Shown here in pieces: positions 26,565 to 37,387 of a stretch of 46,898 nucleotides of DNA. Below the pieces are notes generated by a model. That model ran no database searches and had not been told where the DNA came from. It saw nothing but the letters and a program-made list of their open reading frames with translations. Each line of letters begins with the position of its first letter. The stretch's first letter is position 1. The translations under genes were made by a program, and so were the position numbers. The DNA is from Campylobacterales bacterium (GTDB lineage: Bacteria > Campylobacterota > Campylobacteria > Campylobacterales > QNZT01), in the NCBI GenBank assembly GCA_027068765.1, contig JAMOMC010000034.1, positions 1-46,898 of the forward strand, read 5' to 3'.

Positions 26565-27362
26565 ATGAAGGAATTTATTATATTAAAGTATCTTAAAAAA
26601 ATAACTATTTTACTATTTATATCACTATTTATCTATAACCCTGCATCTGCTACTGAATTAAAAAATCTCTCTGAGGCAGTTGATATGGCAGGAAAACAGC
26701 GAATGTTCACACAAAAGATGCTTAAAAATTATGCTATGATAGGTATGAACAACACTTTTGGTAATCCTAAAGAAGACCTTAAAAACATTACAGATGAATT
26801 TGAAAATCATATAGAGCTACTTTACAATTTTACAAAAGATGAAGCGGTAAAAAAAAGCATAAAAGAGGTGAAAAAAGTTTGGACTCCTATTAAACAAACT
26901 CTAAGCCTAACACCAAATAAAGAGAGTGCAGAAAAATTACAAGAAGATTTAGAAATATTACTTAAAACTACAGATAACACAACAAAACTTTTTGCAAAAC
27001 TCACAGATAAACACTACGGAGAAATTATTAATATTTCTGGACGCCAAAGAATGCTTTCTCAAAGGATGGCAAGTCTTTACATGTTAAAAGTTTGGGGTGT
27101 AGATGATCCAAAATTTACTCAAAAAATGAAAGAGACCATGACTCTTTTTAAAACCTCTTTAGACAAACTACTCCTATATGATAAAAACACTCCCGAGATA
27201 ACTAAGCTTTTAAATAAAACTCAAAGATCTTTTAAATTCTTTGAGTTTATGAACAAATCTAGTACTAAGTTTATCCCATCACTTATATATAAAAAATCTA
27301 ATGAGATTCTTAAAGATATGAATAGAGCAACAAACTTATACACAGCAATAGAAAACAAATAA
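26565..27362 (+). CDS. Exported protein with two PilJ/NarX P-box-like domains
   Basis: 265 residues. Signal peptide (to about 29, ASA cleavage), then two all-helical modules each opening with a P-box-like motif: GKQRMFTQKM (about 43-52) and GRQRMLSQRM (about 159-168). This is the PilJ-type N-terminal sensing domain (PF13675-like), related to the nitrate-binding P-box of NarX/NarQ. There is no transmembrane or signalling domain, so it is a free periplasmic or lipid-independent binding protein. The ATG has no ribosome site upstream; the only AAGGA is inside codons 2-3, so initiation could be leaderless. First of four same-strand genes. Confidence 0.8.
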   Translation: MKEFIILKYLKKITILLFISLFIYNPASATELKNLSEAVDMAGKQRMFTQKMLKNYAMIGMNNTFGNPKEDLKNITDEFENHIELLYNFTKDEAVKKSIKEVKKVWTPIKQTLSLTPNKESAEKLQEDLEILLKTTDNTTKLFAKLTDKHYGEIINISGRQRMLSQRMASLYMLKVWGVDDPKFTQKMKETMTLFKTSLDKLLLYDKNTPEITKLLNKTQRSFKFFEFMNKSSTKFIPSLIYKKSNEILKDMNRATNLYTAIENK

Positions 27363-27375
27363 AAAGGAAATTTAA

Positions 27376-28179
27376 ATGAAAATTACAATTGTTAAAATAG
27401 GACTACTTATCTTAGCTTTAATCTCTAGTGCACATGCACTTGATGAAAATATAAACAGAGTAACTACAACAATACAATCTGATAAAATCAAAATTATAGA
27501 TATTGCAGCAAAACAGAGAATGCTCTCTCAACGAATTGTCAAAGACTACCTATACAAAGGTAAAAATATCGCAACAAATAAAGCTGATAAACAGTTAAAA
27601 GCTTCTCTTGGAGAGTTTTCAAATGCACATAAAAAACTTCTTGTCTCTATAAGTGATCCTGAGATTATAAATCTTCTCACTTTTGTTGAGATGAGTAGTG
27701 ATGATTTTAAAAGTATTGTCAACAAACCATTTGATTTAGATAACGCTCAACTAGCACTTGATCTTAGTGAGACTATGTTAGAAGGGAGTCAATTTGTTGT
27801 AGACTCGCTAACAACTGGTACTTTACATAAGAAATCTGAAATTGTAAAGAAATCTGGAAAACAGAGAATGCTCGCTCAAAGAATTGCCAAATACTATATA
27901 GCTTACCAATCAGGTATAAAAGATAAAAATACTATAGATCAGATGAAACAAGCAGTTAAAATGTTTACAAAAAATCATAATGATCTTATGAGAAATGCCA
28001 CAAACACTCCTAAAATAAACCAGAAGCTAAATGAAGTAAATAAGCTTTGGAAGATTGTTCATAAATTTTATCTAAGTATTGAAAAAGGTGGTCTACCTTT
28101 TATTGTTTTTACAACCACAGATAATATAACTAAAAAGATGAATGAGATAACCAAACTATATGTAGAGCTTTACAAATAG
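27376..28179 (+). CDS. Exported PilJ/NarX P-box-like protein (paralogue)
   Basis: 267 residues. Signal peptide ending SSAHA (about 21), then two helical modules with AKQRMLSQRI (about 45-54) and GKQRMLAQRI (about 161-170). It resembles the preceding gene in layout and is a clear paralogue, with both motifs intact. AAAGGA lies seven bases before the ATG, 13 bases after the upstream stop. Probably a periplasmic ligand-binding partner for the membrane protein encoded two genes downstream. Confidence 0.8.
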   Translation: MKITIVKIGLLILALISSAHALDENINRVTTTIQSDKIKIIDIAAKQRMLSQRIVKDYLYKGKNIATNKADKQLKASLGEFSNAHKKLLVSISDPEIINLLTFVEMSSDDFKSIVNKPFDLDNAQLALDLSETMLEGSQFVVDSLTTGTLHKKSEIVKKSGKQRMLAQRIAKYYIAYQSGIKDKNTIDQMKQAVKMFTKNHNDLMRNATNTPKINQKLNEVNKLWKIVHKFYLSIEKGGLPFIVFTTTDNITKKMNEITKLYVELYK

Positions 28180-28878
28180 ATGACCATTTTTAAAAATATC
28201 TTCTATATCACTCTTATTGTGCTTAGTACAACACTTTTTGCACATGCCCTCACAGATAAAAGCATAAATATTATTAAATCAACAAAAAACATCCAATACC
28301 TAAGTCAAAAAATTTCCAAAGATTATCTATATATCTACTATAATCCAAAAAAAATTGCAACAAAAACAGAGTTAAATAACTCTATAAAAAAACTTGAAGA
28401 GAGTTTAAGGATTGTTGCAAAAAATACTCATAACTTAGATACTAAAAATATTCTTGACTTTCTATCTTATGGTAAAGATCAGATAAAAGAGCTATTAAAT
28501 AGTGATATTTCAAAGCAAAATAGCATATTGATACTAGAATATAGTGAAACAATATTTGAAGGGGCACAATCAATTTTAAATACAAACAACTATGATTACA
28601 CCACAGATAAAGATATAAAAACTAATTTAATGAGAATTTTAAAATCTTATATGGCAATTCATACTAAAATCAACAAAGATGCAAATATAGCACAATTAGA
28701 AAGAGAGAAAATATTACTTAAAAAAAGAATGAAATTTTTAAATAGTGAGGTAAATCAATCTTGGCAACCATTAGAAAAGTTTTTAGAGACTAAAGATAAT
28801 TACTTTATCCCAGATATAGTATCTATTTTAGTAAAAAATATAGAGGACATTACTCAAGAACATGATAGAAATAATTAA
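28180..28878 (+). CDS. Degenerate P-box-like exported protein
   Basis: 232 residues. Signal peptide (to about 23) and the same helical plan as the two preceding proteins, but the P-box is eroded: NIQYLSQKISKDYL replaces the QRMLSQRI core, losing the conserved Arg, and the second motif (about NLMRILKSYMAI) is barely recognisable. Its ATG follows the previous stop codon with no gap, and its end overlaps the NIT gene by 17 bases, so it is translationally locked into the operon. It may have kept a structural role while losing ligand binding. Confidence 0.7.
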   Translation: MTIFKNIFYITLIVLSTTLFAHALTDKSINIIKSTKNIQYLSQKISKDYLYIYYNPKKIATKTELNNSIKKLEESLRIVAKNTHNLDTKNILDFLSYGKDQIKELLNSDISKQNSILILEYSETIFEGAQSILNTNNYDYTTDKDIKTNLMRILKSYMAIHTKINKDANIAQLEREKILLKKRMKFLNSEVNQSWQPLEKFLETKDNYFIPDIVSILVKNIEDITQEHDRNN

Positions 28879-30493
28879 AAAAATCCTATTTTTTACTCTA
28901 ATACTCCTTATCACTTCTCTTAGTGGTTATTTTTTTTATAAATCTTATATAGCATATCAAAACTATCAAATTGCAAAAGAGAGTGAAAAATACACTCTCT
29001 TTATCAAAAACATAAACATAGTTCTTATAAAAATCGAACAAGAGAGTTCGTTAAATGCTCTTTATTTGGGAACTGAAGGAAATTTAAATTTTAATCAGCT
29101 AGAAGATATGCGAGAAAAAACTGACAATGCCATCAAAAATATAACAACACTCATCAAAAAGAACTCAAAATTTTCCCAATATAGTGAAGATATAGTAAAA
29201 TTATCAAAGAACTTACAATATGCTCGTTCAAGAGTTGATGTATTAAGTCCAGATTATAAAGATATCCTCTTTGTGTATTATCAAGATGAGATATTCAACT
29301 CTCTTTTAAATATCATAAAAAATAGTGCAAATGAACTCTCTTTTGGAGTAGAAAGTCTAAAAAAACATCTTTTTACATATGTTGAATTTATCAATTTTAG
29401 AAATAATATCGAAAAAGAAAAGAGTTTTATAACATTTATTATTAGTCAATCAAAAAAGATGGATAAACTTGACTTAATGCTTTGGGACAAGATAATAGCA
29501 CAAGAGATAATACCTAATTTTACTAATCTAGATGAAAAAACTACGAAAGCAATTAAAACAAAATTACAACTTAAAAGCTTCTATAACCTGATTTTTAAAA
29601 TGAGAGTTGATATAGCTAAAGGAGCAAATAAAGGAAACTATTTTACAAGTATAGACATCTGGCATAAAAATATAAATGAAAAGATAAGAAGGGTTAAACA
29701 AAGCGAACAACTAATATTTAAGTACCTAAAAGATAAAAGTAATAATATAGTATCATCACCGAAAGAGATAATACTATATGCTTTCGTCTCACTCTTTTTA
29801 ATATTTTTACTGCTATCGATACTATCTATAAAAAAGAGTAAAAACTCTAAAATTACTCGAAAAAAAATTATTAAAAATATACCAATTGATGATAGAAGAG
29901 AAAGTAAAAAACATATCTCTCATACACACAACATGTTTGATACAAATATGATTCTTGATAAGAAAAATCTTAAACCTACACAACCATCTCTTCCTGTTCA
30001 AGAAGAGATTAATGAAATTGATACATTTAATGCACTTAAAGAGTTCAATTCAATTGTAGAGCTTTTTGTAAAAACCACTAAAAAAGATATAAAATTAAAC
30101 TACTATATTGACCCAACAATTCCAACATCTTGCATAGGTGATTTTTCTAAAATAAAAAAGATTCTTGAAAATATTATAAATTATGCTCTTAACTCTACAA
30201 AAGCTTATGATAGTGTTGAAATTCATATCAACACTAATGCAGAAAACAAAAAAGAGAGTGCAATTAGTTTTAAAATAACCGCTCCTAATTGTTATATAAA
30301 TAAAGAGCAAAAGCAAATAATTATGAAAGCTTTCTATCAAAAAAGCATACCTTTATCAAAGCAAATAAAATCTGATTTAGTTTCAACTAGTAAATTAATT
30401 TCTCTTATGGATGGAGTATTTGGTATAGATAGTGATTTTAAAAAAGGTACTATTTTTTCATTTACACTATCTGTTAAAAAAAGTACCTCTTAA
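28862..30493 (+). CDS. NIT-domain membrane protein with degenerate HATPase
   Basis: 543 residues. Two membrane segments (about 7-27 and 303-323) flank a periplasmic helical domain whose start, IEQESSLNALYLGTEG ... REKTDNAIKNI, matches the NIT (nitrate/nitrite sensing, PF08376-like) pattern. The cytoplasmic part has a linker and a C-terminal HATPase-like fold (about 427-540). The N-box Asn is kept (ENIINYALNST), but the phosphoacceptor His domain is missing, the G1 DxGxG motif is replaced by TAPNCY, and the G2 glycines by SDLVST. It is therefore probably a pseudokinase that cannot bind ATP normally. Fourth gene of the P-box operon. Confidence 0.75.
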   Translation: MIEIIKKILFFTLILLITSLSGYFFYKSYIAYQNYQIAKESEKYTLFIKNINIVLIKIEQESSLNALYLGTEGNLNFNQLEDMREKTDNAIKNITTLIKKNSKFSQYSEDIVKLSKNLQYARSRVDVLSPDYKDILFVYYQDEIFNSLLNIIKNSANELSFGVESLKKHLFTYVEFINFRNNIEKEKSFITFIISQSKKMDKLDLMLWDKIIAQEIIPNFTNLDEKTTKAIKTKLQLKSFYNLIFKMRVDIAKGANKGNYFTSIDIWHKNINEKIRRVKQSEQLIFKYLKDKSNNIVSSPKEIILYAFVSLFLIFLLLSILSIKKSKNSKITRKKIIKNIPIDDRRESKKHISHTHNMFDTNMILDKKNLKPTQPSLPVQEEINEIDTFNALKEFNSIVELFVKTTKKDIKLNYYIDPTIPTSCIGDFSKIKKILENIINYALNSTKAYDSVEIHINTNAENKKESAISFKITAPNCYINKEQKQIIMKAFYQKSIPLSKQIKSDLVSTSKLISLMDGVFGIDSDFKKGTIFSFTLSVKKSTS

Positions 30494-31022: not shown

Positions 31023-33494
31023 CTAAATTACAGATGTATCAATAAATTTATAATCATCTATTTTTGAAATAGGAGGAGAGAAGTGATACCCTTGCATGTA
31101 GTGCAAATCAAGTTTAGTTAACACTTCTACTATCTCCCCTCTACAAACAAACTCAGATACAATTTTCATACCAGAACTTTTTGAAAACTGTGCAATTGTC
31201 TCAACAATAATTCTAAGCTGTTCACTGTTGTCAATATTTTTAATAATCGCTCCATCAATCTTTAAATAATCAGCATTAAGTTCAAACACTCTCTCAAAAC
31301 TAGAGTAACCACTACCAAAATCATCAATTGCAATTTTACATCCGAAAATTTTTATAGCATCTAAAAAACTCTTTGCAACTTCATAGTTATTTATACTCTC
31401 AGATTCTAAAACTTCCACTATAAATCTTTGTGGATTTTTACAATAAGAGAGCCTTTTTTGTAAAAGCTTTAAAACACTTTCACTTACCATATCTTCATAT
31501 GTAAAATTTATAGAAAATCTATCATCTCTGTTTTCAAAAATATCAAAAGTTTTATTTATCATAATTTTTGTCAAAGTACTATAGAGTTTAGCTTTTTTTG
31601 AAATATCTAAAAATTTAAAAGGTGAAATGATACTACCATCTTCATCAATCAATCTAATTAATGCCTCATAGTATAATACATTTTTATTTTTATTATCAAC
31701 AATTGGTTGAAAATATGGGACAATTTTATCTTTTAAAATTGCCTCTTTTAATTTTTTAAGCCAGAGAATATTATTCTCATACTCATTTGAAGCATCTATT
31801 GATTTATTAAATATAGCAAAAATTTTATTATATTTTTTGGCATGTTTTAATGCGATATTTGCTTGAACTAGCATCATTTTATTATTTACTTGAAGATGGT
31901 TTATGTAGCTTATACCACTGCTAACATTAAAAGGGATATACTCTTTAGTCTCTTTAATCTTACGACTTTGTATACTTTTTTCAATTTTATCTATAAAACT
32001 AATCGTCTCAATTGTACTTAATACTTTAGAAATTAATACTCCAAATTCATCTGCATGAAGTCTATAAACTTCAAAACTATAACTTTTATCAATATTTTTT
32101 AAGATATTTGCACACTTTTTTATAATCAAATCACCAGTTTTTATGCCGTAAAAATCATTTATCTCTTTAAATGCATCTATATTCACTAAAATCAAAGTAT
32201 ATTCACCTCTTTTTTTCAAATCTTTTAACATTTTATTTCTATTTGGCAAAGAGGTTAAACTATCAAAATAGAACCTTTTTATTATCTCTTTATTCTTTTC
32301 TAAAATTAATCTAGTTTGCTCTTTTTGTTCTGTAATATCAAGTTTTATAGACATATAATATTTTAACTCATTATTTTTATCAAAAATAGGGATAATAGAT
32401 GCTTTTTCATAAAAAACTTTTCCATCTTTTGTTATGTTTTCAAACTCACCAAACCATCTTTTACCCTCACTAATTGTTTCATGAAGCTTTTTATAAAATA
32501 ACTCATTTTTTCTACTTGAGCGTAAAACTCTAGGATTTTTACCAACTATTTCCTCTTTTTTATACCCTGTTGTTTTTTCAAAAGCTTCATTAACATAGAT
32601 AATATTTTTATTGATATCTGTTAAAATAACAGAGTTATCACTCTTGTCTACACCCTCTTTAAAATATCTAAGTTGAATTTCACTTTTTCTATTAAAATAA
32701 AAAATTAAATTTACAAAAATAGTTAGTAAAAATATCACTACAACAAGAAATTTAACAGCTCTACTAGTATTTTTTACTCTCTCATCTAAATACTCTTTCA
32801 TTACATTTGCAAAACTATCTATTTTTTGATCTAATTTTAGCTCATCTGATTTTTTTATAAGAGAAGATAATTTATTATGATTTATATAAATAATACTAAA
32901 ATGCACAAGTATCTTATCTATTTTTTTACTCAAGTCTATATCTCTCGATATATTGCTAACTCTATTTATCGATTTGCTTAATTCATAATCTACATCTTGC
33001 TTATACAAACTAAATTGTAAAATTAAACTATATAGTTTACTAATCTCTAAATTAATCTTTGTATTATCTGATTCATTTATCTCATCATATAAAGTTGGAA
33101 TATACCTTAATGAATTATTTACAACTGCTGTATATGATTTGTATTTTTCAATAAACTCTCTCTTTTTTAGAAAACTACTCTCTATATTTAGAAAAATTTT
33201 TAATATTTTCTCTTGTTTAAGTGGACTATCATATAAACTATTTAGAGAAGTTTTTTCTAATATATCTTTAAACTTATCTAAAGTTATCTCCACATTATCA
33301 TAATTTAATTGATTTATTTTACTTCCCATCAACAGTTCTAAATCTTTATTTAAAATCTTTAAATATGCAATCTTTTTATTAAACTCAACCTGATTTAAAA
33401 TTTTATTCTTTGTAGTATTAAAATAGTAGATAAACGAAGGAACTATAACTATCAATAGAGCATACAAAAGATAATTTTTAAGATATTTTTTCAA
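31023..33494 (-). CDS. Membrane PAS-GGDEF-EAL c-di-GMP phosphodiesterase
   Basis: 823 residues. Membrane segments at about 9-25 and 247-268 enclose an all-helical periplasmic sensor (DAHL-like). Then come PAS (about 275-392), GGDEF (408-565) and EAL (575-815). The GGDEF signature is RLHADEF, with both glycines lost, so cyclase activity is unlikely. The EAL set looks intact: YEALIRL, SINFT, EVLES, DDFGSGYSS (724 on), DYLKIDG, VSEFV, MQGYHFS. Predicted c-di-GMP phosphodiesterase. The start is TTG (33492-33494) with GGAG upstream, overlapping the peroxidase stop by 4 bases. Confidence 0.88.
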   Translation of the reverse strand: MKKYLKNYLLYALLIVIVPSFIYYFNTTKNKILNQVEFNKKIAYLKILNKDLELLMGSKINQLNYDNVEITLDKFKDILEKTSLNSLYDSPLKQEKILKIFLNIESSFLKKREFIEKYKSYTAVVNNSLRYIPTLYDEINESDNTKINLEISKLYSLILQFSLYKQDVDYELSKSINRVSNISRDIDLSKKIDKILVHFSIIYINHNKLSSLIKKSDELKLDQKIDSFANVMKEYLDERVKNTSRAVKFLVVVIFLLTIFVNLIFYFNRKSEIQLRYFKEGVDKSDNSVILTDINKNIIYVNEAFEKTTGYKKEEIVGKNPRVLRSSRKNELFYKKLHETISEGKRWFGEFENITKDGKVFYEKASIIPIFDKNNELKYYMSIKLDITEQKEQTRLILEKNKEIIKRFYFDSLTSLPNRNKMLKDLKKRGEYTLILVNIDAFKEINDFYGIKTGDLIIKKCANILKNIDKSYSFEVYRLHADEFGVLISKVLSTIETISFIDKIEKSIQSRKIKETKEYIPFNVSSGISYINHLQVNNKMMLVQANIALKHAKKYNKIFAIFNKSIDASNEYENNILWLKKLKEAILKDKIVPYFQPIVDNKNKNVLYYEALIRLIDEDGSIISPFKFLDISKKAKLYSTLTKIMINKTFDIFENRDDRFSINFTYEDMVSESVLKLLQKRLSYCKNPQRFIVEVLESESINNYEVAKSFLDAIKIFGCKIAIDDFGSGYSSFERVFELNADYLKIDGAIIKNIDNSEQLRIIVETIAQFSKSSGMKIVSEFVCRGEIVEVLTKLDLHYMQGYHFSPPISKIDDYKFIDTSVI

Positions 33495-34426
33495 AACTCT
33501 TCTCCTAAAATTTTAGCTCTTTTACCTGTTAGAGTATTTAAAAATAGTTTTAAATACTCTATATCTTCTCTACTAGCAACTCTTCCTAGTTGATACTCTA
33601 GCATTATCTCTATAGCATCTTCAAGATCTGTTGCATTTCCATCATGAAGATAAGGAGCTGTTTGTGCAATATTTCTTAATGTTGGAACTTTAAAGTAGTA
33701 CTTATCCTCATCATTTTTTGTAACATTATATCTTCCAAATTGATTTTTAGTACCCAAATAAGGCTTTATTGCTCCTAATTTTTGATAGAGATTTCCACCT
33801 ATATTTACACCATTATGGCAAGAGATACATCCATAAGATTTAAAAAGTTTATAACCTTGTTTCTCTTGCTCATTTAAAGCATTTAAATCTCCACGAAGAA
33901 ACTTATCAAACTTTGAATTTGGAGTTACAAGTGCTTTTTCAAACTCCACAATTGCATCTATTATATTTTTAATGGTAACTCCATCTGGATATAAAGTGCT
34001 AAACTCTTTTTTATAATAGATATCATTTTTTAATTTTTTAATTACCTCTATACTATCCATAGCCATAACAGTTGAACTAAAAAGAGATATCTTTGCTTGA
34101 GTTTTTAAATCTTTTGCTCTTCCATCCCAAAGTTGAGAAAAGTTAAAAACACTATTAAAAACTGTAGGAGAATTCATAGTTCCTATTTTCCCACCAACTC
34201 CATATGAAAATTTTTTATCATCTGCACCAGACTGTTTTAAAGAGTGACAAGATTCACAAGAGATGGTACCATCCAGGCTCAAAATTGGGTCTGAAAATAA
34301 TTTTTTTCCTAAAATTGCTCTATTTTTATCATATTTTATATTTTGAGGCAGAGGTGTTATAAGTTCAGTAGCCTTCATACTACTAAAAAAGAGCGAAAGA
34401 ACCAATATAGAAAAAACCGACTTCAA
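33491..34426 (-). CDS. Di-haem cytochrome c peroxidase family protein
   Basis: 311 residues. Signal peptide (to about 19), then two haem c sites: CESCH (about 57-61) and CISCH (about 200-204), with the family segments LGKKLFSDPILS, NSPTVFNSVFNFSQLWDGRA, FKVPTLRNIAQTAPYLHDG and a distal Met region. This is the bacterial CCP/MauG family, a periplasmic enzyme that usually reduces H2O2 with electrons from cytochrome c. The start is TTG at 34424-34426 behind AAAGG. Coupled to the EAL gene downstream. Confidence 0.92.
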   Translation of the reverse strand: MKSVFSILVLSLFFSSMKATELITPLPQNIKYDKNRAILGKKLFSDPILSLDGTISCESCHSLKQSGADDKKFSYGVGGKIGTMNSPTVFNSVFNFSQLWDGRAKDLKTQAKISLFSSTVMAMDSIEVIKKLKNDIYYKKEFSTLYPDGVTIKNIIDAIVEFEKALVTPNSKFDKFLRGDLNALNEQEKQGYKLFKSYGCISCHNGVNIGGNLYQKLGAIKPYLGTKNQFGRYNVTKNDEDKYYFKVPTLRNIAQTAPYLHDGNATDLEDAIEIMLEYQLGRVASREDIEYLKLFLNTLTGKRAKILGEEF

Positions 34427-34534
34427 ACTTAACCTTTAACTTTATCTTAAATATTATATCGTCATTTAAAAAAACTTCTTTATAGATAAGCAAAAAATTG
34501 GTACACTAACTATAAAAATTTATGGAGTTTGAAA

Positions 34535-37387
34535 ATGAAAATCATATTAATCTGTTTTATATCTATTTTAACCCTTCTAGCAAAGTGCGAATATAAGGTG
34601 AACATAGAGCTATTTCCAGATAAAAACTCTCTTGTCGCAGATATAGAAATTAAAAATTCTGATAAAAATATCACAGTAGATTTAGAAGGTTTCAATATTG
34701 AAAATGAGTTAAAAAAAGAGCAAGGTTATATATCTTTTTCTTATAAAAAGACTTTAAAAAATCAAATAAAAAAAGATTTTATCTTTTTAAATTCATCTTT
34801 TATTCCAAAAATAAACTCTTTATGTAGATATGAGTTAAACTTAACTCTCCCAAAAGAGTTTATAGCAATTAGTGAAAGTGAAGAGATAAGCCAAAAAAAT
34901 AGTATTGACAAAACTACCTATAGTTTTAAAATTAAAAAACCAATTGACAACATAAATATAATAGCTTCAAAAGATTTTATCATAGAGAGTGAAACTTATA
35001 ATAATATAGAAATTTCAACCTATTTTTTTAAAAAACACTCAAATTTATCACCTACATATATAAAAAAGGTAAAACATTATATTCAAATGTATGAAAAGAT
35101 GCTAGGGGAGTTTCCATACAAAAGATTTAGTGTTGTTGAAAACAGTTTTCAAACAGGCTACTCAATGCCAACTTTTACACTAATTGGAAGTCGCATCATA
35201 GATAAAGATTTTTTGATAGATATATCTTTGGGACATGAGATAGCTCATCAATGGTTTGGAAATTCAGTATTTAACGATTTCTCCAAAGGTAACTGGGTTG
35301 AGGGGCTTACTTCATATCTAGCCGATCACTACTATAAAGAGTTAGATGCAAAAGGGTGGGAGTATAGGAAAAAGATTTTAGATGATTATGCATCTTATGT
35401 AAATGAAAAAAATATATTTTTACTAAAAGATTTTACTCACCGATATGATAAGAAAAGTATGATTATAGGTTATGGAAAAGGGGCATTTGTTTTTCATGCT
35501 CTTCGAAAAAAAATTGGAGATGATCTATTTTTTGATGGGTTAAAAGCTTTTTACAAAGAGTACAAAACAAAATATGCAACATATACAGATATAGATAAGT
35601 TTTTTACAAACTTTACAAAAATAGATACAAGTGATGTTTTTCACAATGCATATGAGCATCTAGATATTATAGACTTTAACCCTGAAAATATCTCTGTTTT
35701 GTATGATGAGGGAAGTTACAACCTAACATTTGAGATACCTTTTGATAAAAATATAAGCCATGATTATAAACTCCCACTAATTGTGCAAAGTGAAGATAAA
35801 AATGAGAGTTTTTTTATAGATATAAATGATACAACCAAAGTTTCACTCTCTTTAAAAGATAGACCGCTAAAACTTATATTTGATAGAGATTATGATCTTT
35901 TTAGAACTTTAGCAGATGGTGAAAATATAGCAAATTTAGCAAAGCTTTTGGGAGATGAAAATCTCTCAATAGTTACAGACAATATAGAAGAGTTTAAAAA
36001 ACTAAAAAGAGTTTTCAAAAATGCCAATAAGATTAGAATTGATGAGTTAACTTTTAAACACATCCAGAGCAAAAATATACTATTTTTAAAAGATGCAAAA
36101 GAGTTAGCTCAAAAATCGATGACCACCTTACCAAAACAGCAAAAAGGAGTTTTCATAATCTGTGAAAAAAACCCTTGGAATGGAAGTAAAGTTGTAAGTT
36201 ATCTATATATTGAAAATGATAATGAAGCAAAAGCTTTAAGAAAACTACCACATTACTCAAAATATTCAGAACTATATTTTAAAGATGCAAAATTAGAGAA
36301 AAAATCAATAAAAAAGAGCCAAAGAGGAAAAATTTATACTATAGCAAAAAAACAACTAGCAGTAAAAACACCAAAACAGATTGGTTTAAAAGAGATTATA
36401 GAGGAGATTGAAGATAAAAAGCTAATCTTCATAGGTGAATCACACACAAACTTTGCACACCATATAAATCAATTAAACATCATAAAAGCACTCCATAAAA
36501 AAGGCAAAAAAGTTGCAATTGGGATGGAGATGTTTCAGAGAAAATTTCAAAATGTTCTTGATGATTATATAAAAGGAGAGATAGATGAAAAAACATTTTT
36601 GCAAAAAAGTGAATATTTTACAAGATGGAAATTTAACTACAATCTATATAAGCCAATTTTGGACTATGCAAAAGAGAATAAGATACCAGTTATCGCTCTA
36701 AATTTAGATAGAAAAATCATAAAAAAAGTTACAAAAAATGGTTTTTATGCTTTAAGTGACAAAGAGAAAGAGCTTCTTCCAAAAAGTATAGATTTTACAA
36801 ACCAGACATACAAAGATACTTTAAAAGCTTTTTTTAACTCCAATGTCCACTTAAATGCAGCTCATAAAAAAGGTGTAAAAAATGTAAATACAGACTTTGT
36901 CTACCAATCTCAGATAATTTGGGATGAGACGATGGCTGAGAGTATATCTTTGTATCTTGAAAAAAATCAAGATGTAGACTCATTTATAACTCTTGCAGGA
37001 GCTGGTCATTTAGAGGGTTATCACGGTATTCCAGATAGAGTTTTTAAAAGAGTCAAGCTACCTTTTGTTGTGATACTTCAAGATATGCCTGCAACTTCAA
37101 AAAGTGCTGATTTTGTACTCTTTCCACAAAAACTAAAAGTAAAAGAGCCTATGAAAATTGGAGTATTTTTAGATACTGTAAAAAATTTAAAAGTTATAAA
37201 AACTGTAAAAAACTCAATCGCATCTGAACTTGGAATAAAAAAAGGTGATGTTATTTTAGAAGTTGATGATAAAGAGGTTAAAAACTTAGATGAGATGAAG
37301 TTTATACTATTTTTTAAAAAAGAGGATGAGAAGATAAAGATAAAATTAAAAAGAGATAAAAAAACATTAACATTAGAGATTGGTTAA
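34535..37387 (+). CDS. M1 metallopeptidase-ChaN-PDZ fusion protein
   Basis: 950 residues from the ATG at 34535 (GGAG 7 bases upstream; a TTG two codons earlier is rejected). Signal peptide (to about 17). The M1-like peptidase part (about 20-460) has the zinc motif GHEIAHQWFGN (about 233 on) and the downstream Glu in NWVEGL, 17 residues after the second His rather than the usual 18; the GAMEN exopeptidase motif is replaced by GYSMPTF. Then a ChaN/haem-binding domain (about 615-860; IFIGESHTNFAHH, AGAGHLEGYHGIPDRV) and a C-terminal PDZ (about 865-950; LGIKKGDVILEVDD). Probably periplasmic. Its stop shares TTAA with the convergent gene. Confidence 0.85.
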   Translation: MKIILICFISILTLLAKCEYKVNIELFPDKNSLVADIEIKNSDKNITVDLEGFNIENELKKEQGYISFSYKKTLKNQIKKDFIFLNSSFIPKINSLCRYELNLTLPKEFIAISESEEISQKNSIDKTTYSFKIKKPIDNINIIASKDFIIESETYNNIEISTYFFKKHSNLSPTYIKKVKHYIQMYEKMLGEFPYKRFSVVENSFQTGYSMPTFTLIGSRIIDKDFLIDISLGHEIAHQWFGNSVFNDFSKGNWVEGLTSYLADHYYKELDAKGWEYRKKILDDYASYVNEKNIFLLKDFTHRYDKKSMIIGYGKGAFVFHALRKKIGDDLFFDGLKAFYKEYKTKYATYTDIDKFFTNFTKIDTSDVFHNAYEHLDIIDFNPENISVLYDEGSYNLTFEIPFDKNISHDYKLPLIVQSEDKNESFFIDINDTTKVSLSLKDRPLKLIFDRDYDLFRTLADGENIANLAKLLGDENLSIVTDNIEEFKKLKRVFKNANKIRIDELTFKHIQSKNILFLKDAKELAQKSMTTLPKQQKGVFIICEKNPWNGSKVVSYLYIENDNEAKALRKLPHYSKYSELYFKDAKLEKKSIKKSQRGKIYTIAKKQLAVKTPKQIGLKEIIEEIEDKKLIFIGESHTNFAHHINQLNIIKALHKKGKKVAIGMEMFQRKFQNVLDDYIKGEIDEKTFLQKSEYFTRWKFNYNLYKPILDYAKENKIPVIALNLDRKIIKKVTKNGFYALSDKEKELLPKSIDFTNQTYKDTLKAFFNSNVHLNAAHKKGVKNVNTDFVYQSQIIWDETMAESISLYLEKNQDVDSFITLAGAGHLEGYHGIPDRVFKRVKLPFVVILQDMPATSKSADFVLFPQKLKVKEPMKIGVFLDTVKNLKVIKTVKNSIASELGIKKGDVILEVDDKEVKNLDEMKFILFFKKEDEKIKIKLKRDKKTLTLEIG

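Follow-up and report, generated by a model that had tools for sequence, protein, structure and literature searches.

The operon P1–P4 lies on a 46,898-nt contig of a Campylobacterales bacterium (GenBank assembly GCA_027068765.1, contig JAMOMC010000034.1), the whole of which is termed the window. It encodes three exported proteins of the PilJ type (P1–P3) followed by a membrane receptor (P4), and we consider it likely that together these form a periplasmic multi-protein sensor coupled to a transmembrane protein that was ancestrally a hybrid histidine kinase and has become a pseudokinase receptor in the family of the window. The anatomy of the operon and its evolutionary history are well supported. 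The system as a whole is probably an accessory-protein-dependent sensor kinase with a function related to nitrate.

A four-gene operon shared by two families

The four-gene operon proposed by the original prediction was recovered as four open reading frames (ORFs) at the coordinates given there. All are on the plus strand, with valS on one side and a convergent LysM-BON gene on the other. The genes had been described as locked together by zero-gap and overlapping junctions, which applies to P2–P3 (0 bp) and P3–P4 (17 bp overlap) and not to P1–P2, which are separated by 13 bp. The same gene order is shared by two Campylobacterales families, the family of the window (f1) and its sister family (f6), which holds Sulfurovum and Nitratifractor and corresponds to Sulfurovaceae in the record labels. 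It also occurs in metagenome-assembled genomes labelled Sulfurovum, Nitratifractor and Campylobacteraceae. The copy number of P1 is one to three. The proposed genetic tie between soluble P-box proteins and a membrane receptor with a NIT domain thus holds across both families. Across the order, 26 of 299 genomes had a homologue of P2 at an E-value of 1e-20 or better, every one from f1 or f6; within f6, P2 homologues were present in 76 of 175 genomes. The operon is missing from several f1 genomes.

Flanking genes were not conserved among the loci inspected, and the four genes are therefore the unit. Exported partners co-encoded with a receptor recur in both families, as expected of an accessory-protein-dependent sensor kinase of the TorT/TorS type. 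A response regulator was considered as a further member and rejected, two-component pairs being located near some copies of the operon (L072, L105 and L106) and not near others. A scan for promoters and terminators returned nothing above chance.

P1, P2 and P3 are exported P-box proteins

The features of the exported proteins are as follows.

26565–27362, plus strand: P1, exported tandem PilJ-domain protein of 265 aa, with orthologues in the two families
26688–26720, plus strand: first P-box of P1, AGKQRMFTQKM (GxxR in 33/37 copies of P1 repeat 1)
27036–27065, plus strand: second P-box of P1, SGRQRMLSQR (GxxR in 35/39 copies)
27376–28179, plus strand: P2, exported tandem PilJ-domain protein of 267 aa, the most conserved member
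27505–27534, plus strand: first P-box of P2, AAKQRMLSQR, which is AGKQRMLSQR in most relatives (GxxR in 33/36 copies)
27853–27882, plus strand: second P-box of P2, SGKQRMLAQR (GxxR in 30/38 copies)
28180–28878, plus strand: P3, exported diverged paralogue of P1 and P2, 232 aa
28288–28311, plus strand: worn-down P-box of P3, NIQYLSQK, identified by sequence and alignment

Signal peptides were read from the sequences of P1, P2 and P3, ending in NPASA, SAHA and FAHA ahead of TE, LD and LT, respectively. The PilJ family PF13675 was matched twice each by P1 (71.4 bits) and P2 (57.7 bits), well above the curated cut-off of 26.6, as the original prediction had anticipated. That prediction had also placed a QRMLSQR core twice in both proteins. 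Two P-boxes are indeed present in each (KQRMFTQK and RQRMLSQR in P1, KQRMLSQR and KQRMLAQR in P2), with the exact core occurring once per protein, and P3 possesses a single degenerate version (IQYLSQK). P3 alone had no Pfam match, and 8 of 32 P3 orthologues matched PF13675 weakly. Given that P3 was retrieved by the P2 profile (E-value 7e-16) and that the comparison of profiles with hhalign gave 99.8% (E-value 2e-30), it is a true, diverged paralogue of P1 and P2.

The nitrate sensors McpN and NarX hold a single nitrate at the junction of two P-boxes. Binding is by a GxxR motif, which is partly shared by NasR (PMC6381276, PMC8199190). Within the window, GxxR is found in both repeats of P1 and the second repeat of P2; the first repeat of P2 reads AxxR, and P3 has no GxxR. 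Among relatives the motif is kept in about nine tenths of the P1 and P2 P-box copies. The predicted structure of P2 consists of two tandem four-helix bundles (predicted local distance difference test, pLDDT, 89.6; predicted template modelling score, pTM, 0.84), with the P-boxes (residues 44–53 and 160–169) located within the first helix of each bundle (residues 23–62 and 151–178). Among solved structures NasR gave the best TM-score to this model (0.63–0.64), at a weak E-value of the kind usual for all-helical folds.

Exported PilJ proteins also exist outside the operon. A stand-alone protein with two repeats is encoded elsewhere in the genome of the window (L001, G000 contig C92), and further stand-alone examples were found as ORFs of 557–576 aa (L083, L084, L085 and L087), four PilJ repeats being confirmed for L083. 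The four-repeat gene of genome G006 sits between genes for two related proteins of ~215 aa without an NCBIfam name, ~11.5 kb from narG. In G005 a separate operon (L082, contig C181) is headed by a P1-like PilJ gene followed by a hybrid histidine kinase, an Hpt protein and a REC-GGDEF-EAL regulator, amounting to a complete phosphorelay towards cyclic di-GMP. Free PilJ proteins have therefore been paired with kinases more than once.

P4 derives from a hybrid histidine kinase

The features of the receptor are as follows.

28862–30493, plus strand: P4, membrane receptor of 543 aa, hybrid histidine kinase remnant as judged by alignment with the full-length kinases that occupy this slot in other operons
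28907–29737, plus strand: NIT-type ectodomain with flanking helices, residues ~16–292
29768–29830, plus strand: second membrane helix, residues ~303–323 (hydrophobic stretch; helix 300–339 in the model)
29879–30016, plus strand: linker, predicted to be disordered (pLDDT <50, residues 340–385), at the HisKA site of full-length relatives
30026–30481, plus strand: pseudo-HATPase without N, G1 and G2 boxes, residues ~389–540

P4 had been put forward as a NIT-domain membrane protein. NIT was matched in its orthologues and not in the window copy, and P4 proved to be more than this, with residues 389–540 matching the ATPase domain of histidine kinases (PF02518 at 26.2 bits against a cut-off of 26.4; 57.6 bits with the BarA model). 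Most of this domain was modelled at a pLDDT near 90, and GacS, RetS and ETR1 were the top matches to its fold. Profile searches of P4 detected neither a HisKA (DHp) domain nor a receiver, and the H-box HEIRTP is missing. At the positions of the ATP-binding boxes the window copy reads NIINYALNST and TAPNCYIN and has no glycine box, such that the N, G1 and G2 boxes of a sensor kinase are all lacking.

Within f6, each fetched operon with a NIT-bearing P4 encodes a NIT-HisKA-HATPase-REC hybrid kinase of 909–1150 aa; within f1, every primary-operon P4 that is complete on its contig measures 330–600 aa and lacks HisKA and receiver. Twenty-three full-length relatives have intact H, N, G1 and G2 boxes. 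In the reduced P4s these boxes have disappeared or are disrupted, some copies retaining part of G1 (KDSGKYIS). Two loci of G018 (L029 and L080) are the same contig and were counted once. In a tree of the sensor domain the reduced P4s form a single clade (99% support in the Shimodaira–Hasegawa-like approximate likelihood-ratio test); the P2 tree was less resolved and did not force two events. Judging by sequence, then, P4 is what is left of a hybrid histidine kinase, which makes a multi-protein sensor kinase the ancestral arrangement. The short P4s of G004 and G017 were examined as further truncations and rejected, both running into a contig end. G010 has a reduced operon and, on a separate contig, a second one (L075, contig C126) in which a diverged but full-length NIT hybrid kinase is accompanied by P2-, P3- and P1-like genes.

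The pseudo-HATPase is under purifying selection in the two closest usable pairs of relatives. In G005/G007 the ratio of non-synonymous to synonymous substitution rates (dN/dS) was 0.13 for the pseudo-HATPase (dS 0.61, not saturated); the NIT part, the linker and P2 (dS 0.43) gave 0.27, 0.37 and 0.09, respectively. In G009/G015 the values were 0.07 for the pseudo-HATPase, with dS near saturation, and 0.05 for P2. Relatives were used because the contig of the window's close relative ends inside P4. The reduced clade has additionally gained motifs that none of the 23 full kinases has, namely N[IV]A[QE] in the domain (10 of 11) and a DLPLxN-type motif in the linker (9 of 11).

The sensor part of P4 consists of a helical ectodomain flanked by two membrane helices. 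PF08376 (NIT) did not reach a match in the window P4 and scored above its cut-off in four orthologues (L009, L028, L032 and L037), with which the window sensor aligns end to end (352 bits, with a profile that includes the window sequence). A Foldseek search with full-length P4, which returned mainly kinase HATPase matches, did not confirm the NIT fold. Positions that hold arginine in many NIT members vary in P4, where arginine is not constant. Several full kinases (L031, L033, L034 and L036) have lost about half of the NIT ectodomain and keep P1–P3. Together, the variable arginines of P4 and the retention of P1–P3 beside half-deleted ectodomains suggest that the ligand site is in P1 and P2 and that the P4 ectodomain may serve as a docking surface. 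That retention, like the slow evolution of the soluble proteins, is in keeping with the original interpretation of binding proteins that dock on a receptor.

Carriers of the operon are enriched in nitrate reductases

Among f6 genomes at least 90% complete, NapA was present in 33 of 36 operon carriers versus 33 of 58 non-carriers (Fisher p 0.0004, a value that ignores kinship). All ten near-complete carriers of f1 have NapA or NarG. NapA was considered as a universal companion of the operon and failed as such, given that the genome of the window and G006 have no NapA. Both possess narG, a gene found in only 2 of 22 f1 genomes and 1 of 94 near-complete f6 genomes, and both have kept the operon, which therefore does not follow one enzyme. 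The association between carriers and nitrate reductase is suggestive, not proof. In the genome of the window, narG belongs to a membrane nitrate reductase cluster of narG, narH and narI, identified by NCBIfam models, with an ORF for a NarK-like transporter (L131, G000 contig C57, 8955–18478); the narG of G006 is on contig C174 (L132/L133).

Proposed mechanism and alternatives

In the proposed mechanism, P1 and P2 would each fold as two four-helix bundles in one chain, as predicted for P2, giving an intramolecular version of the NarX/McpN sensor dimer with a likeness to the NIT part of NasR. As the two P-boxes of a protein occupy matching places, each in the first helix of its bundle, they could together make up a single site for a small anion; nitrate or nitrite is the most plausible ligand. 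P3, with its worn-down P-box, may be a structural partner, and the complex of P1–P3 would dock on the NIT-type ectodomain of P4. P4 was ancestrally, and in f6 still is, a hybrid histidine kinase. Sequence, model, tree and the dN/dS of relatives show that in f1 it has lost the phosphorylatable HisKA and the receiver, and that its HATPase, deprived of ATP-binding boxes, has been kept as a folded domain under selection. With HisKA, receiver and boxes lost, P4 would have to signal through protein contact, serving as a pseudokinase whose target is a regulator or a second kinase. Anion sensing by P1 and P2, docking on P4 and contact signalling by the pseudokinase constitute the best-supported inference. 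The fuller account, in which a hybrid kinase fed by three free P-box proteins turned once into a catalytically dead receptor whose HATPase fold was re-used for docking while the periplasmic sensor stayed intact, the signal leaving by contact with a partner and not by His-Asp phosphotransfer in the receptor, is offered tentatively, at close to an even chance.

Several observations weigh against this reading. The operon is absent from three f1 genomes with NapA (G003, G012 and G021), three f6 carriers have no NapA, and no nitrogen genes lie beside the operon at the loci inspected. The HATPase is not always needed, as the P4 of G006 stops shortly after the second membrane helix and is followed by a yebC-like gene, and a six-frame search detected no HATPase remnant. 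More distant pairs gave a dN/dS of 0.26–0.47, and the domain of the window copy itself falls outside the selection test. The window P4 also lacks the linker motif and has the domain motif only in weakened form (NTNAENKKESA), such that the inference from clade motifs applies to the clade and has less force for the window. The weak E-value between P2 and NasR belongs here as well.

The alternative that survives best retains the same architecture and replaces nitrate or nitrite with another ligand, such as a different anion, a protein or an envelope signal. We regard this as a real possibility, short of likely. Nitrate binding is not a property of every NIT domain, that of PA4520 lacking it (PMC6381276), and the inconstant arginines of P4, the nitrate reducers devoid of the operon and the want of adjacent nitrogen genes all fit such a ligand. 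It is harder to reconcile with the retention of GxxR in most P1 and P2 P-boxes, with the enrichment of nitrate reductase among carriers and with the two carriers that exchanged Nap for Nar and kept the operon.

P1–P3 and the membrane part of P4 might alternatively act wholly in the periplasm, for example as a binding or scaffold complex, with P4 mainly an anchor and its cytoplasmic domain secondary. This would explain how G006 keeps all four genes with its P4 ending just past the second membrane helix, and P2 is far more conserved than P4. However, the cytoplasmic fold is kept in eleven f1 relatives and is under selection in the pairs tested, and a complete kinase occupies the same gene slot in f6, making a purely periplasmic role unlikely. 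Slightly less likely again is that P4 is a decaying relic, a dead kinase in a disappearing operon. The loss of HisKA, receiver and catalytic boxes, the absence of the whole HATPase from G006 and the patchy presence of the operon in f1 would be expected of a relic, whereas reading frames that are open across genera, a low dN/dS of the pseudo-HATPase and of P2 in the two closest pairs, conserved clade-specific motifs and a fold predicted with high confidence would not. A part in type IV pilus chemotaxis, to which only the Pfam name PilJ points, is highly improbable, as a Pfam search found no methyl-accepting chemotaxis protein (MCP) signalling domain in P1–P4, no pil or chp gene lies near the operons inspected, and the proteins are free and exported.

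Comparison with known systems

P1 and P2 have the PF13675 fold and the P-box with GxxR in common with NarX/NarQ and McpN. In those proteins the P-box domain belongs to a membrane receptor and it takes two subunits to make the site, whereas in P1 and P2 it is duplicated within free exported proteins. The NIT domain of NasR has two four-helix bundles per chain, as does the P2 model; NasR is however cytoplasmic with an ANTAR RNA-binding output, and P1–P3 have no output domain. The ancestral form of the system fits the type of TorT/TorS and QseG/QseE (PMC12691602), in which a separate extracytoplasmic protein feeds a kinase. Those pairs involve one accessory, not of the PilJ type, and an intact kinase, in contrast to the three PilJ-type accessories described here.

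Re-use of a kinase fold for regulation by contact, as proposed for P4, is known from RetS and DivL (PMC4211667), and in sequence as well as fold the HATPase of RetS ranks among the top matches of the P4 domain. The RetS kinase region (PDB 7n0e, 6dk7) nonetheless keeps its DHp domain and contacts GacS through it, whereas P4 has none. The conservon protein CvnA of Actinomycetota, with CvnE/CvnF, represents a NIT-type kinase-like family, some members of which have a co-encoded accessory sensor. CvnA8 autophosphorylates on histidine, and its accessory, a GAF protein of the cytoplasm, occurs where NIT is missing (PMC13343842).

No description of the P1–P4 system was found in the searched open-access literature on PilJ/PF13675, NIT domains, Sulfurovum or nitrate sensing in Campylobacterota, for which it is a candidate nitrate-related sensor. 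The operons provide a natural series that runs from working hybrid kinase (f6) by way of pseudokinase (f1) to the G006 receptor, which lacks a cytoplasmic domain. The three sensor proteins are the same at every stage, and this series allows testing of how a bacterial pseudokinase keeps signalling. P1 and P2 moreover offer a soluble, two-bundle sensor of the NarX type that should be easier to study than membrane proteins.

Neighbouring genes in the window

Three genes beyond the operon were noted. At 34529–37387 a single protein of 952 aa, without an NCBIfam name, combines a peptidase M1 domain, a ChaN-type haem-binding domain and a C-terminal PDZ domain. The convergent neighbour at 31023–33494 encodes a membrane protein with DAHL, PAS, GGDEF and EAL domains, and is adjoined by a MauG/cytochrome c peroxidase-like gene at 33491–34426.

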